A stretch of DNA of 32,813 nt from a virus. Each line of letters starts with the position of its first letter. Position 1 is the stretch's first letter. The stretch is from positions 1-32,813 of the IMG/VR virus record IMGVR_UViG_3300042476_000579, one strand, 5' to 3'. The notes below the pieces were generated by a model. The model ran no database searches, was not told the DNA's origin, and worked only from the letters and a program-made list of their open reading frames with translations. The position numbers and the translations under genes were made by a program. Below, piece by piece: positions 2,913 to 23,101 of this stretch.

Positions 2913-3178
2913 ACGAGCGCCTGGCCTGGGAGCGCGGCCAGGCGCAAAAAGATCGCGAGCGGCTGCAGGCTGCCGGCCTGCATGGTCTGGCCGCGCAGAT
3001 GGCCCCGCCCAGCCTGAGTGCAGACGTAAGCACTCTTTGGCACGCCTGGCGCTTCTGTGGCGGGTGGGTGCCGGAGCGGTTGCCGCTGTACCACGCGCTC
3101 CACCCAGTTGATGATCCCTTGCTGCTCGTCGAGTTGATGCATCTGCTGCGTGACCGCCTCTCGCAGGAAAAACCATGA
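2514..3178 (+). CDS. Tail assembly chaperone, frameshifted long form (lambda gpGT-like)
   Basis: A -1 shift on A AAA AAC (2903-2909) bypasses the TAG at 2910 and continues from 2909 in the -1 frame for 89 more codons to the TGA at 3176-3178, giving a predicted 221-residue protein. I found no convincing independent start for this extension. It contains a Trp-rich stretch (STLWHAWRFCGGWVPERLP) and a helical end (LLLVELMHLLRDRL), and stops inside the ATG of the tape measure gene. In lambda and many siphophages a small fraction of ribosomes makes the equivalent GT protein, whose T part recruits the tail tube subunit. The shift itself is inferred from the signal. Confidence 0.85.
2903..2945 (+). 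other. Programmed -1 ribosomal frameshift signal
   Basis: The heptamer A AAA AAC occupies 2903-2909 in the correct phase (GCA AAA AAC). A 7-nt spacer follows. Then comes a perfect 10-bp stem: GCGCCTGGCC at 2917-2926 pairs with GGCCAGGCGC at 2936-2945 across a 9-nt loop. Slippery site, spacer and stem all have textbook geometry. Confidence 0.9.
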
Positions 3179-5004
3179 CCAATCAGGCCAAGATCGTCAT
3201 CACCGCGGAGGACAAAACATCCTCAGTGCTGCGTGGCGTTCTCGGCAGCGTCCAAAGTACAGTCGCCGCGTTTGCGGCGCTGGGTAGCGGCGTCGCACTG
3301 GGCGCCGTCACCCGTCTGGTTGGCGCGCTTGATGACCTGGCCGATACTGCCCGTGGTATTGGCGTGTCGGCTGAAAGCCTGTCCGCCTTTCAGCTTTCGG
3401 CCCGCGCTGCCGGCGTCTCGTCGGAAGAACTGTCCGCCGGGCTTGGCAAGTTTTCCCAGGTGCTTGAGGACGCCCGCTCCGGCAGCAAGGAAGCTGAGAG
3501 CACGGTCCAAGCCCTTGGCATCGGCCTGCGCGAGTTGCGCTCTGGCTCGCTGACCACTGAGGGTGCACTCGCCCGCGCGGCCGATTCGCTTGCAAAGTAC
3601 GCCGACGGGTTCGAGAAGACCGCCCTTGCGCGCGACGCGTTTGGCCGCGGCGGCGCCAAGTTCATTACCTTCTTGTCCGAGGGCTCTGATGGGCTGCGCA
3701 AGTTCGGCGGCGTATCGCAGCAGGCCGTTGATGAGGCCGGCAAGCTCCAAAACGAGATTGACCAATTGGCCGCCTCGTGGGAGAAGCTCAAGCTGAGCGT
3801 GGGTGGTGCCATCGCCGGCATCGTTAACGCCACGCTAGAGCTAAAGCGCGGCTCGCTCGACTCGCAGCTAGAGACCACGCAACGCGCCCTCAATGAGATC
3901 AATGAGGCGCTGGAGCGTGCCAAGCCCGGCAGCCGCATTGAAACCAACTTGCTGGCACAGCTCAAGGCCGAAACTGAAAAGCTTCGGCAGATTGAGCAGA
4001 CCATCATCCGGCGAGACTTTGTCGGTCCACCGGCGCCGCTGGAGCGCGCTCCCGTCCGTGCGCAGCAGCCACGTCAGTCTGAGCGGCCGCGCGCGGAGGA
4101 AATCTCAGAGGCCAGCCGTGAGCTGGCTCAGTTCGTTAGCCAGCTTGAGCGCCAGCGCGACGTGGTGGAAGAGATCACCGACGTAGAGCGTGCGCTGCAG
4201 TTGCTGCGCGCCAACCCGGCAATCGACACGCCGCAGGTGCGCGAGCTGCTGTTCCTGGAAATTGATCGGACCGAGGCTGCGCGACAGCGCCGGATAATTG
4301 ATGAGGAGATCCGCCGCATCAATGCCGAGGAGCTTGCGCAGACGCGCGCTCTGCGCGACCAGGTGCTTGAGCTGGCGGGCGTTGCCGAAGAAGAGCGCAA
4401 GCGCAAGCTGACCGAGCAGTTGGAGATCCTCATTGAGCAGCGTGCATTGACCGCTGAGCAGGCAGAGCGCGCCGTCAATGGAATCGCTGGCATCCGCGAT
4501 GAGATAGACAAGACCAAAGACGCCACTGAGCAGTTTGGCTTGGCGTTCGCCAGCAGCATCGGCAATTTCATTGAGGACGGCGGCCGCGGTGGTGTCAAGA
4601 GCTTCTTCGAGGCGTTGCTGCAAGACCTCCTAAAGTTAACCACGCAGCTTTTGATCGTTAAGCCGCTGGCCGAAGCGGTCAAGGAGGCTTTCAGCGGTGG
4701 GCCCGGCGGATCAGGCGGCGGTCTAGGCAACATCTTCGGTAAGATCGGTGACAGCATCAGCAGCCTGTTCGCTGGCTTCTTCGCCGACGGCGGCTTCATC
4801 CCGCCCGGCCGCTTTGGCGTGGTCGGCGAGCGCGGTCCCGAGCTGGCCTTCGGTGGCCGCAGCGGGCAGACCATCAGCCCGATGGGCGGCCCCACCATCA
4901 ACATCAACCTGCCGCCCGGCAGCAACGTTACCCGGCAGACGGCCAACCAGATCGCCGGTGCCGTGTCGCGCCAGCTCGCTATAGCCAACCGCCGCAACGG
5001 GTAG
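3175..5004 (+). CDS. Tail tape measure protein
   Basis: A 609-residue protein that sets tail length and is ejected with the DNA. The N-terminus holds a short hydrophobic stretch (TVAAFAALGSGVALGAV) followed by LSAFQLSARAAGVSSEEL, common in tape measure proteins. The middle (about residues 210-450) is long, charged and helical with many Glu/Arg/Gln runs. Near residues 535-560 is the characteristic FADGGFIPPGRFGVVGERGP motif. At the usual ratio of about 0.15 nm per residue the tail would be near 90 nm, a rough estimate. The start overlaps the end of the chaperone long form (ATGA). Confidence 0.95.
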   Translation: MTNQAKIVITAEDKTSSVLRGVLGSVQSTVAAFAALGSGVALGAVTRLVGALDDLADTARGIGVSAESLSAFQLSARAAGVSSEELSAGLGKFSQVLEDARSGSKEAESTVQALGIGLRELRSGSLTTEGALARAADSLAKYADGFEKTALARDAFGRGGAKFITFLSEGSDGLRKFGGVSQQAVDEAGKLQNEIDQLAASWEKLKLSVGGAIAGIVNATLELKRGSLDSQLETTQRALNEINEALERAKPGSRIETNLLAQLKAETEKLRQIEQTIIRRDFVGPPAPLERAPVRAQQPRQSERPRAEEISEASRELAQFVSQLERQRDVVEEITDVERALQLLRANPAIDTPQVRELLFLEIDRTEAARQRRIIDEEIRRINAEELAQTRALRDQVLELAGVAEEERKRKLTEQLEILIEQRALTAEQAERAVNGIAGIRDEIDKTKDATEQFGLAFASSIGNFIEDGGRGGVKSFFEALLQDLLKLTTQLLIVKPLAEAVKEAFSGGPGGSGGGLGNIFGKIGDSISSLFAGFFADGGFIPPGRFGVVGERGPELAFGGRSGQTISPMGGPTININLPPGSNVTRQTANQIAGAVSRQLAIANRRNG

Positions 5005-20356: not shown

Positions 20357-20536
20357 ATGGACGAAGAACTGACTAAGGCCCTGCACTCTGCGACGTTTGC
20401 AACGCAAGAGCTACAGCAGGCACTGAAGACCTCGGACGCGGTGGCCGCGCTGGTTCTCCTGCCGATGATTGCCGACGCGGCACGATTGGCGCAGCAGATC
20501 AGCGGGTTGATTCACGCGAGGGCCGACCGTGGCTGA
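20357..20536 (+). CDS. Small hypothetical protein
   Basis: A 59-residue helical protein (MDEELTKALHSATFATQELQ, then VLLPMIADAARLAQQISGLI). I use the ATG at 20357, 6 nt after GGAAGG. An ATG at 20351 overlaps the previous stop but has no room for a ribosome-binding site. The end overlaps the methyltransferase start by 8 nt. No family recognised. Confidence 0.6.
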   Translation: MDEELTKALHSATFATQELQQALKTSDAVAALVLLPMIADAARLAQQISGLIHARADRG

Positions 20537-21890
20537 GAAAGTGGTGATCGGCAACGCGGAACTGTGGCACGGCGACTGCCTCGATGTGCTGCGCACTCTG
20601 CCGGATTGCAGCGTCGACAGCATTGTGAGCGACCCGCCCTATGGGTTGACGTTCATGGGCAAGCGCTGGGATTACGACGTGCCCAGCGTCGAGGTGTGGC
20701 GCGAGTGCCTGCGGGTGCTGAAGCCCGGCGGCCATTTGCTCGCATTTGCCGGCACCCGCACGCAGCACCGGATGGCGTGCCGAATTGAGGATGCGGGCTT
20801 CGAGATCCGCGACATGATCGCCTGGGTGTACGGCAGCGGATTCCCCAAGAGCCTGGACGTGAGCAAGGCGATAGACAAGGCGACTGGTGCGGAGCGGGAG
20901 GTGGTGGGGTTTGACGCTCGCAAGGCCACCCAGCAGACGCGCGCCGTCGACACACCGGCGTATGGCGACTACGCCGGCAACCCGGGAGCCATCACCGCCC
21001 CCGCGACAGACGCCGCCCGCCATTGGCAAGGCTGGGGCACCGCCCTGAAGCCCGCCCTGGAGCCAATCACCGTCGCCCGCAAGCCCCTGACCGGCACGGT
21101 GGCCGCAAACGTGCTGGAGCATGGTACGGGGGCGCTGAATGTGGATGGGTGCAGGGTGGGGACAGAAACTGTTGGATGGAATGGCTTAGGCGAAACGCCG
21201 CGAAACGTATACATGGGAGGATGGTCAGCAGATGGCATTGCTAGGCCAACCATCGGCCGCTGGCCCTCCAACCTGATCCACGACGGGAGTGAGGAGGTGC
21301 TGGCGGCGTTTCCGCAGCAGACCAGCGGAAGCCGCGCTGCTGGCGTCCGCAAGGGTGTCGGCTACGGGAGCAGCGCCAAGGGCGACGGCGGCCCGGCCAT
21401 CGAGGGCAGCAGCGGCAGCGCCGCCCGGTTCTTCTACTGCGCCAAGGCGAGCAAGTGGGATCGGGATGAGGGGTGCGAGTGGCTGGAGGAACGAGATCGT
21501 GCGGACCAGTCTGCTTGGGTGCGGAAATGCAACGTCTGCGGAGACACTTTTTGTGACCCACAGACAAGCAGGCCCCATTGCGGCCACGACGATTTTTCTT
21601 TTGTCTCGCCGTCCCCGCGACGCAACCACCACCCCACCGTGAAACCCACCGACCTGATGCGTTACCTCTGCCGCCTGGTCACGCCACCTGGCGGCGTGGT
21701 GCTGGACCCGTTTATGGGCAGCGGCAGCACGGGCAAGGCCGCCATGCTGGAAAGCTTCGGGTTCATCGGCATTGAGCGCGAGGCGGAATACGTTGAGATC
21801 GCTAAAGCGCGCATAGCCCGCGCCCAGGCCCAGGGGCAGCTTCTGTCGCCCGAAGAACCGCGCGAATGCGTGCAGGAGGGACTGTTGTGA
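20529..21890 (+). CDS. Site-specific DNA methyltransferase (N6-adenine/N4-cytosine, DPPY type)
   Basis: A 453-residue enzyme that would methylate exocyclic amino groups in phage DNA, probably to escape host restriction. The catalytic motif DPPYGL is at residues 35-40 and the S-adenosylmethionine motif DPFMGSGSTG is near residue 400, the order of beta-class enzymes. The middle (about 115-310) is a target-recognition region. About residues 335-355 form a Cys-rich zinc-ribbon-like insertion (KCNVCGDTF, then a Pro-His-Cys-Gly-His end). GTG start with GAGGG 6 nt upstream. Confidence 0.93.
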   Translation: MAEKVVIGNAELWHGDCLDVLRTLPDCSVDSIVSDPPYGLTFMGKRWDYDVPSVEVWRECLRVLKPGGHLLAFAGTRTQHRMACRIEDAGFEIRDMIAWVYGSGFPKSLDVSKAIDKATGAEREVVGFDARKATQQTRAVDTPAYGDYAGNPGAITAPATDAARHWQGWGTALKPALEPITVARKPLTGTVAANVLEHGTGALNVDGCRVGTETVGWNGLGETPRNVYMGGWSADGIARPTIGRWPSNLIHDGSEEVLAAFPQQTSGSRAAGVRKGVGYGSSAKGDGGPAIEGSSGSAARFFYCAKASKWDRDEGCEWLEERDRADQSAWVRKCNVCGDTFCDPQTSRPHCGHDDFSFVSPSPRRNHHPTVKPTDLMRYLCRLVTPPGGVVLDPFMGSGSTGKAAMLESFGFIGIEREAEYVEIAKARIARAQAQGQLLSPEEPRECVQEGLL

Positions 21891-21967
21891 AACCTAACTG
21901 GGACGTGCTGCGCGTCGCCGGCCGCAATGCGGAAAACCGCGCGAAGAACGGGAAGGACTATGAATGA
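21887..21967 (+). CDS. 26-residue mini-gene sharing the Cro-like C-terminus
   Basis: A GTG start overlaps the methyltransferase stop (GTGA) with AGGAGG 7 nt upstream, so initiation signals are strong. The product reads MKPNWDVLRVAGRNAENRAK and six more residues. WDVLRVAGRN is identical to the end of the Cro-like protein at 20118-20354. It may be the remnant of a duplicated regulator gene or a leader that couples translation to the methyltransferase locus. Its TGA overlaps the ATG at 21964 (ATGA). Confidence 0.5.
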   Translation: MKPNWDVLRVAGRNAENRAKNGKDYE

Positions 21968-22733
21968 GTTGGCTCTTTTCGCAGGCGCTGGTGGCGGAAT
22001 ACTCGGCGGGCACTTGCTCGGCTGGCGAACTGTCTGCGCTGTCGAGTGGGAGCCCTACGCCGCAAGCGTTCTTGCCGCCCGACAGAATGACGGCCTTCTC
22101 CCGCCCTTCCCGATTTGGGATGACGTTCGCACCTTTGACGGACGAGACTGGCGCGGCGTTGTTGACGTGGTATCGGGCGGATTCCCTTGCCAAGACATCA
22201 GCGTTGCGGGCAAAGGCGCAGGAATTGATGGTTCCCGATCCGGCATGTGGCACCACATGGCGCGAATCGTCGGTGAGGTTAGACCTCGATTCGTTTTCGT
22301 GGAGAACTCACCTCTCCTTGTGGGACGAGGACTTGACCGAGTTCTTGCCGACCTTGCCCGCCTGGGGTTCGATGCGCGATGGTGTGTTATGGGAGCAACT
22401 GCCGCAGACCTTCCACACGGGCGCGAAAGGTTCTGGATGGTGGCCCACGCCCGTGAAGTTCGACGCGAACCTACCAAGCATGATGCCAAAAAATGGCGAC
22501 ACCACAAGGACCGACATGCACGGGAAAGCTCGCAAGGTTCTAAGAGATGGCCGCACCGCTTCGATGGGACTTTCCCGCCTCATCATCTACATGACTGGCA
22601 AATTCCCGAAGGTGGAAGCGTTCGAGGAATTGATGGCCTGGCCGAATGGATGGACCGCGTTAGCGCCGTTGGAAACGGACAAGTTCCAACAGTGGCGGCA
22701 CGCGCATGGAACCTGATGACGGCAGAGGGATGA
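21960..22733 (+). CDS. dcm: DNA (cytosine-5) methyltransferase
   Basis: A 257-residue enzyme with the C5-methyltransferase motifs in order: ALFAGAGGG (I, residues 5-13), GGFPCQDIS with catalytic Cys77 (IV), VENSP at 114-118 (VI), RERFWMVAHA (VIII) and AVGNGQVP near the C-terminus (X). It is short for the class and its target-recognition segment (about 170-225) is unusually basic. Almost its whole length overlaps another frame (21964-22716). Third-position GC is low (about 59% over the first 140 codons by hand count, against about 84% in 50 codons of the preceding gene). The only close ribosome-binding site is poorly spaced for this start. Confidence 0.9.
   Translation: MNELALFAGAGGGILGGHLLGWRTVCAVEWEPYAASVLAARQNDGLLPPFPIWDDVRTFDGRDWRGVVDVVSGGFPCQDISVAGKGAGIDGSRSGMWHHMARIVGEVRPRFVFVENSPLLVGRGLDRVLADLARLGFDARWCVMGATAADLPHGRERFWMVAHAREVRREPTKHDAKKWRHHKDRHARESSQGSKRWPHRFDGTFPPHHLHDWQIPEGGSVRGIDGLAEWMDRVSAVGNGQVPTVAARAWNLMTAEG
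21964..22716 (+). CDS. Overprinted protein inside the C5-methyltransferase gene (+1 frame)
   Basis: A 250-residue frame that starts 4 nt after the methyltransferase ATG and ends 17 nt before its stop. AAGGA ends 6 nt before this ATG, ideal spacing, and the ATG overlaps the mini-gene TGA (ATGA). The product is Trp/Phe-rich and well-formed: MSWLFSQALVAEYSAGTCSA, SRPSRFGMTFAPLTDETGAA, LPAWGSMRDGVLWEQ, WWPTPVKFD and a WPNGWTALAPLETDKFQQW end. I recall similar unassigned phage proteins with these N- and C-terminal motifs, which argues for real translation. Third-position GC in this frame is about 73%. Function unknown. Confidence 0.6.
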   Translation: MSWLFSQALVAEYSAGTCSAGELSALSSGSPTPQAFLPPDRMTAFSRPSRFGMTFAPLTDETGAALLTWYRADSLAKTSALRAKAQELMVPDPACGTTWRESSVRLDLDSFSWRTHLSLWDEDLTEFLPTLPAWGSMRDGVLWEQLPQTFHTGAKGSGWWPTPVKFDANLPSMMPKNGDTTRTDMHGKARKVLRDGRTASMGLSRLIIYMTGKFPKVEAFEELMAWPNGWTALAPLETDKFQQWRHAHGT

Positions 22734-23101
22734 AACCTAACGAACTGTTCGACCGCCACGGTATGCCCACCCGCGAGGCGGTAGGCGTCCGGCTGAAACG
22801 TGCCGGCCAGCAGCGCGCGCTTGAGTCAAGCCGCCCGGATTGGGGCGAGCAGATCAGCGCGGCCTTCCGCCGGTGGGCGGCCAATCGCGTTGGCGCAGAC
22901 ATCTGCATCGAGGATTTTCGCGAGCAGGTTCCCGCCAGCCTGTACCCGGCTACGCACAAGGGCTGGGGCGCATTGCCGCGCGTCCTAGTCGCCGCGCGCT
23001 TGATCGCGCCCCGAGTGGATAGCGAGGGCAATGCGATCTATAGGCCGGCGCGCAGCCAGCGTACCCATGCCCATCCTGTCAGGATCTGGAGGGTGCTTTG
23101 A
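22730..23101 (+). CDS. Winged-helix-like phage protein
   Basis: A 123-residue protein. The second half reads ICIEDFREQVPASLYPATHK, then GALPRVLVAARLIAPRVD and a final VRIWRV. Many phage proteins near recombination nucleases share this pattern of a polar helix, His-Lys-Gly-Trp-Gly turn and basic winged end. A DNA-binding role is likely but unproven. The ATG at 22730 overlaps the methyltransferase stop. Its first codons (MKPN) match those of the 21887 mini-gene. Confidence 0.65.
   Translation: MKPNELFDRHGMPTREAVGVRLKRAGQQRALESSRPDWGEQISAAFRRWAANRVGADICIEDFREQVPASLYPATHKGWGALPRVLVAARLIAPRVDSEGNAIYRPARSQRTHAHPVRIWRVL

Follow-up and report, generated by a model that had tools for sequence, protein, structure and literature searches.

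The C5-cytosine DNA methyltransferase gene of this tailed phage carries a second gene that is fully nested in its +1 reading frame. The nested frame, referred to here as frame B, codes for a protein and evolves under purifying selection. Frame B and the methyltransferase frame, frame A, probably encode two subunits of one C5-cytosine DNA methyltransferase, with B as the nested recognition subunit. The window, that is, the whole 32,813-nucleotide stretch analyzed, belongs to a tailed-phage genome (virus record IMGVR_UViG_3300042476_000579) in which terminase, portal, major head protein, and tape measure genes are present. The features of the locus are as follows.

20529 to 21890, + strand: N4/N6 DNA methyltransferase gene, upstream and in the same apparent operon as A/B (PF01555, 3.4e-33)
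21887 to 21967, + strand: mini-gene with a GTG start within the stop of the N4/N6 methyltransferase gene (from the sequence)
21953 to 21957, + strand: ribosome-binding site AAGGA, 6 nt before the B ATG and 2 nt before the A ATG (from the sequence)
21960 to 22733, + strand: frame A, catalytic subunit of a C5-cytosine DNA methyltransferase (PF00145, 3e-31; phrog_363, 6e-61)
21964 to 22716, + strand: frame B, proposed recognition subunit of 250 aa (conserved in all window-type relatives; purifying selection)
22188 to 22190, + strand: A catalytic Cys77 of motif IV (GGFPCQ), invariant in alignment A3
22261 to 22452, + strand: B residues 100 to 163, conserved core, W..S.(K/R)YD..SSW(K/R)T...TWP.WG.MR.G..WE...SGLWPTP (alignments A1/A2)
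22302 to 22307, + strand: A motif VI Glu115-Asn116 (ENS), invariant in A3
22422 to 22430, + strand: A motif VIII (RER), R155 and R157 invariant in A3
22456 to 22602, + strand: B residues 165 to 212, variable region (conservation profile)
22461 to 22631, + strand: A residues 168 to 224, slot of the expected target-recognition domain (TRD), predicted disordered in the AF2 model (pLDDT below 50)
22603 to 22656, + strand: B residues 214 to 231, motif IX-like segment FPKVEAFEELMAWPNGWT (hhalign), M224 and P227 invariant
22671 to 22676, + strand: A motif X Gly238-Asn239 (AVGNGQVP), invariant in A3

Frame A encodes 257 aa from the ATG at 21960, and its open reading frame can be extended back to an ATG at 21927. 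Frame B lies in +1 relative to A and ends 17 nt before the end of A. The two open frames thus share 753 nt, as the initial annotation had described. Its reading of the start region also held: the AAGGA site is better spaced for B than for A, and the stop of the mini-gene (TGA, 21965 to 21967) overlaps the B ATG. Because of this overlap, B may be translationally coupled. The low third-position GC content of A, first counted by hand as about 59% over 140 codons, was computed as 59.3% over the first 140 codons and 55.3% over the whole gene; it is 79% in the neighboring N4/N6 methyltransferase and 76 to 85% in the other window genes measured. The annotated genes nearest to A/B in the window are the N4/N6 methyltransferase, an HNH-like protein, and unknowns. 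The mini-gene (start region 21886 to 21898) and the gene after A/B (start region 22729 to 22741) begin with the identical bases TGAAACCTAAC, which encode MKPN, and both of these starts overlap the stop of the preceding gene, forming a small repeated initiation context.

The tests of B were chosen to be independent of B as bait; the profiles and alignments were automatic, and the loci include redundant contigs. For the reverse test, 80 window-type methyltransferases, 50 to 86% identical, were fetched with A alone as bait. In these genes the +1 frame was open over a median of 98% of A, B was open in 79 of 80, and the B profile scored 258 to 348 bits; the +2 frame has 15 stops. The sole window-type locus fetched in this way with a stop in B is L130 (positions 1937 to 1942), where the stop may be an error in the sequence, a sign that the gene has decayed, or a mark of a B made as two pieces. 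Synonymous codons were then shuffled within each gene so that the A protein was kept. Shuffled window-type A genes had about 6 stops in the +1 frame, and the B profile scored 171 bits compared to 355 bits observed, with no shuffle reaching the observed score in any of the 76 window-type genes (76/76). The same result held in 59 of 65 Diva-type genes and in all 28 genes of the Phasih type, from mycobacteriophages. A simple pairwise comparison of +1 residue identity with that in codon-shuffled genes was dropped as a line of evidence, since identity in the +2 frame was raised too.

Synonymous sites of A are constrained where B overlaps them. A good example of this is the Diva type, in which B begins about 55 to 65 codons into A. 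Fourfold-site identity over A codons 1 to 50, before B, was 0.287 compared to 0.255 expected (neutral), and from the beginning of B on it was 0.42 to 0.69. In the Rhodococcus type it was 0.77 to 0.96 through most of B and 0.45 to 0.57 past the end of B. In mycobacteriophage loci L173 to L202, which encode a single-chain methyltransferase with motif IX in the A frame, synonymous constraint peaks only at codons 121 to 150. For 42 close pairs, all independent, substitutions were counted in overlap-aware classes. Transitions that leave A unchanged occurred at 0.227 per possible change when also silent in B, 0.072 when altering B, and 0.006 when stopping B (P = 3e-14, by a Fisher test that pools sites); for transversions the values were 0.190, 0.043, and 0.007, respectively (P = 1e-24, likewise pooled). 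This means that changes silent in A were 3 to 5 times rarer when they altered B and rarer still when they created a stop in B. In the +2 control, the odds ratios for silent-in-A changes in the 42 pairs were 0.84 and 1.34, neither significant. As a control, the canonical C5 methyltransferases that the same bacterial genomes encode had no B match, and their +1 frame was closed (51 to 128 of about 300 codons).

The start signals are conserved as well. A Shine-Dalgarno (SD)-like site precedes the B ATG in 77 of 81 window-type relatives, most commonly with a spacing of 8 nt. The A start codon lies 4 nt upstream of B in 69 of these 81 loci and 9 to 24 nt further upstream in 11 of the 12 others. In the Diva type, the internal start of B is preceded by an SD-like site in 57 of 62 loci. 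The checks proposed in the initial annotation (homologous +1 frames, the synonymous rate, and overlap-aware substitutions) all favor B as a gene, and its suggestion of a genuine, widespread overprinted gene is borne out by the open +1 frame in 79 of 80 homologues, the depressed synonymous rate, and the substitution classes.

Frame A had been described as carrying all main motifs, which proved incorrect on one point. A carries motifs I, IV (PCQ), VI (ENV/ENS), VIII, and X and the catalytic fold, the elements that define the catalytic part of PF00145, and its profile aligns to canonical methyltransferases through motif VIII, with motif X next. Motif IX is missing from A and is found in B instead. 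In a motif regex search, motif IX was in A in 0 of 160 window-type genes, and motif X was in the A frame in nearly all window-type genes tested. The AF2 model of A gave a confident catalytic fold, with about 170 columns matched to M.HaeIII (E 7e-13) and M.HhaI (E 2.7e-12). With residues 168 to 224 predicted to be disordered, A lacks, besides motif IX, the folded recognition domain that a single-chain enzyme would have.

Both elements have apparent counterparts in the C-terminal half of B. By hhalign, the C-terminal segment of B is in register with canonical C5 methyltransferase motif IX (LTPRECARLMGFPDTF), with a score of 21.2 compared to a maximum of 15.9 in 60 column-shuffled controls. The family consensus of the segment is LNPxWVEWLMGWPxGWT. 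The copy in the window is short and partly degenerate (MAWP for MGWP) and fails the motif regex, so its assignment as motif IX is that of a degenerate copy backed by the family. In relatives, the variable region that precedes the segment consists of one to several (W/L)PTPxAxD repeats, and this order, variable region and then motif IX, is the order found in C5 methyltransferases. The initial annotation left the function of B unknown; since its C-terminal half corresponds to the variable region plus motif IX, B is likely the second methyltransferase subunit. Searches of Pfam, NCBIfam, PDB sequences, and PDB folds gave no match to B, and phrog_1008, a "DNA methyltransferase" family, matches it. 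The conserved core of B is detectable in the +1 frame in all of the methyltransferase types. The N-terminal 160 residues showed no resemblance to anything known in domain and fold searches, and B could therefore do more than recognition. Modeled alone by AF2, B had a mean pLDDT of 57.6, with only residues 181 to 230 reaching about 67 to 85. Such a low-confidence model is compatible with, rather than proof of, a subunit that folds on its partner.

Taken together, the coding of both frames, the selection, the split of the motifs, the obligate co-occurrence, the frame-moving modules, the model of A, and precedent suggest that A and B form a two-subunit enzyme. In this model, ribosomes would initiate at the A start and, 4 nt later, at the B ATG. 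A would be the catalytic subunit, with motifs I to VIII and X, the cofactor site, and Cys77 but no folded recognition domain. B, made from its own ribosome-binding site and ATG, would supply the variable target-recognition region and motif IX, and would dock on A to form the small domain that reads the DNA sequence. In the assembled enzyme, A would flip and methylate the cytosine and B would read the target. Translation of both proteins, their binding to one another, the choice of target by B, and a role of the enzyme in shielding phage DNA from host restriction are inferred. Several points count against this model. The structure prediction for B is of low confidence and has no PDB fold match, the link to motif IX in the window itself depends on a short and partly degenerate segment, and the N-terminal part of B has no known likeness. 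In addition, a pure motif IX role would leave unexplained why the B core persists in the mycobacteriophage and Rhodococcus types, which have motif IX in A.

The same modules (TRD, IX, and X) swap frames between lineages. In four split-type genes (L295, L324, L328, and L330), motif VIII is the last motif before the A stop, and the variable region, motif IX, and motif X continue in the frame of B; these genes show an AquI-like division with a long overlap. In the Phasih and Rhodococcus types, motifs IX and X are both in the A frame and the B core is still in +1, and some mycobacteriophages have an in-frame fused version. In one further locus (L029), motif X is at the end of the B frame. There, the B-frame open reading frame (3001 to 4329) encodes 442 aa, and a second methyltransferase end, complete with motif X, lies about 130 aa beyond motif IX; A itself ends short of motif X, and the locus looks like a recombinant. 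We favor, with some reservation, the broader reading that A/B represents a large phage and prophage family of C5 methyltransferases in which the recognition region and motif IX lie on an overprinted subunit and TRD, IX, and X have changed frame across lineages. Since the two frames share the DNA of their variable region, a single recombination event could then alter specificity while the catalytic half is conserved.

Other explanations of B were weighed against these data. Long open +1 frames are common in high-GC genes, and in the mycobacteriophage-type genes openness by itself was not above chance in the codon shuffle; B could therefore be suspected of being open by chance, as a by-product of GC content or of conservation in the A protein. 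This has almost no probability left, as the codon shuffle, the step in fourfold-site identity, the four-class substitution test with its +2 control, and the canonical C5 controls all reject it, and for the window-type and Diva-type genes it is already refuted. Another possibility is that ribosomes leave frame A by a programmed +1 frameshift once past motif VIII, reaching the C-terminal half of B and yielding one long methyltransferase with no self-initiated B. It draws on the four split-type genes, where A stops just past motif VIII and TRD, IX, and X go on in +1, and on the in-frame fused version in some mycobacteriophages. However, B is open and constrained far upstream of the shift point, from its own first codons, and SD-like sites stand at a fixed spacing before its ATG in the window type (77/81) and before its internal start in the Diva type (57/62). 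Moreover, the stop contexts of the split genes share no obvious slippery sequence by eye, and a shift in window-type genes would lose motif X, which is in the A frame. We consider a frameshift very improbable.

A more serious contender is that B, although genuinely overprinted, serves a function other than methylation, for example, in anti-restriction or regulation, and is tied to A by the shared DNA only. In favor of this, the N-terminal two-thirds of B match no known domain, and the B core persists in +1 even where A has its own motif IX. Against this, the C-terminal half of B is in register with motif IX, motif X closes the B frame in just those genes whose A is cut short after motif VIII, and B was never found without A in the loci fetched, A itself having no recognition domain that folds in the model. 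A separate function is thus unlikely, though less so than a frameshift, and the two-subunit enzyme is the reading preferred here.

This division of labor has precedents. M.EcoHK31I reportedly has its small gene inside the large gene in another frame, which is how B is encoded inside the A gene, and both of its polypeptides are said to be needed for methylation. It is a two-polypeptide C5 methyltransferase that recognizes YGGCCR, with motifs I to VIII and X on the large polypeptide and motif IX alone on the small one; the large subunit is also where the recognition domain is predicted to lie, and the enzyme is part of a restriction-modification system (Lee, Kam and Shaw 1995, as described in PMC3404938). 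A likewise is a large polypeptide with motifs I to VIII and X and without IX, and motif IX is on the second polypeptide (by family-level hhalign and regex, the window copy being degenerate). Unlike M.EcoHK31I, the A/B gene is in a phage, the recognition slot of A is predicted to be disordered, and the variable region is in the B frame together with IX. What is new relative to M.EcoHK31I is the phage-wide spread and deep conservation, the recognition region in the overprinted frame, and the frame switching of modules. M.AquI has alpha and beta subunits, the methyltransferase being split between motifs VIII and IX (PMC3404938); the four split-type genes resemble it in their division, with I to VIII on one side and the variable region, IX, and X on the other. 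In the window, by contrast, the large subunit retains motif X, and the whole of B lies within the A gene. In Dcm-type C5 methyltransferases (PF00145; M.HhaI and M.HaeIII), the catalytic domain is like that of A, but all motifs and the recognition domain are in one chain and the +1 frame is closed.

Among phages, the closest parallel is Paenibacillus phage Diva gp49/gp50, in which a B-type frame is nested in +1 in a C5 methyltransferase gene and both frames are homologous to those in the window, the difference being that B starts about 60 codons into A. In GenBank (NC_028788) it is listed as "g49 internal gene," and the Diva paper checked annotates it as an internal gene only, with no discussion of its function or evolution. 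In the ShiLan-type out-of-frame HNH insertion, too, a phage methylase gene encodes a further protein in a different frame. That insertion is recent, mobile, and sporadic and has HNH homology, whereas B, which was not inserted and lacks HNH, is found conserved across the family. B as an HNH or homing insertion was rejected, as it had no Pfam or NCBIfam match.

The A/B overlap was found in this phage and in hundreds of others, with at least 576 related stretches in viral contigs. Carrier phages include those of Pseudomonas, Salmonella, Acinetobacter, Klebsiella, Vibrio, Stenotrophomonas, Microcystis, Synechococcus, and Paenibacillus, and the pair is also on Leptospira plasmids. In bacterial genomes it ranges from Pseudomonas and Acinetobacter through Verrucomicrobiota, Patescibacteria, and Clostridium, and it occurs in one archaeal metagenome contig. 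B was in +1 on A in 78 of 80 bacterial-genome loci, the exceptions (L395 and L420) being an indel that shifts both frames together. The initial annotation had mentioned free-standing phage proteins with the end motifs of B. None was found among the roughly 430 loci fetched, many of them redundant: when B served as bait, the window, Diva, Rhodococcus, and profile queries yielded overlapping loci only, every locus examined has B overlapping a methyltransferase in the +1 register, and for the fetched loci a free-standing B family was therefore rejected. The literature searched, mostly papers available without subscription, contained no description of this phage family.

Current annotations call one frame and drop the other. 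For instance, the B frame is called in place of A, as a "hypothetical protein," in the GenBank entries of Pseudomonas phage PP083311, Rhodococcus phage ReT1v-2, and Vibrio phage 1.236.O. In Rhodococcus phage ReT1v-2 (L089, 1543 to 2444), only a 50-codon scrap of A is listed beside it as "DNA methyltransferase." Many phage methyltransferases in the databases are thus probably listed without an essential subunit, and such enzymes, when expressed singly, may look inactive. The A/B pairs would also add naturally split enzymes to those C5 methyltransferases that, like M.EcoHK31I, already serve in targeted methylation (PMC3439449). They make testable both the origin and cross-phylum conservation of a full-length overlapping gene pair and the movement of a recognition module between reading frames. 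If the family reading is true, few overprinted gene pairs of tailed phages would be as old or as widespread as A/B, which is almost always annotated as a single gene.
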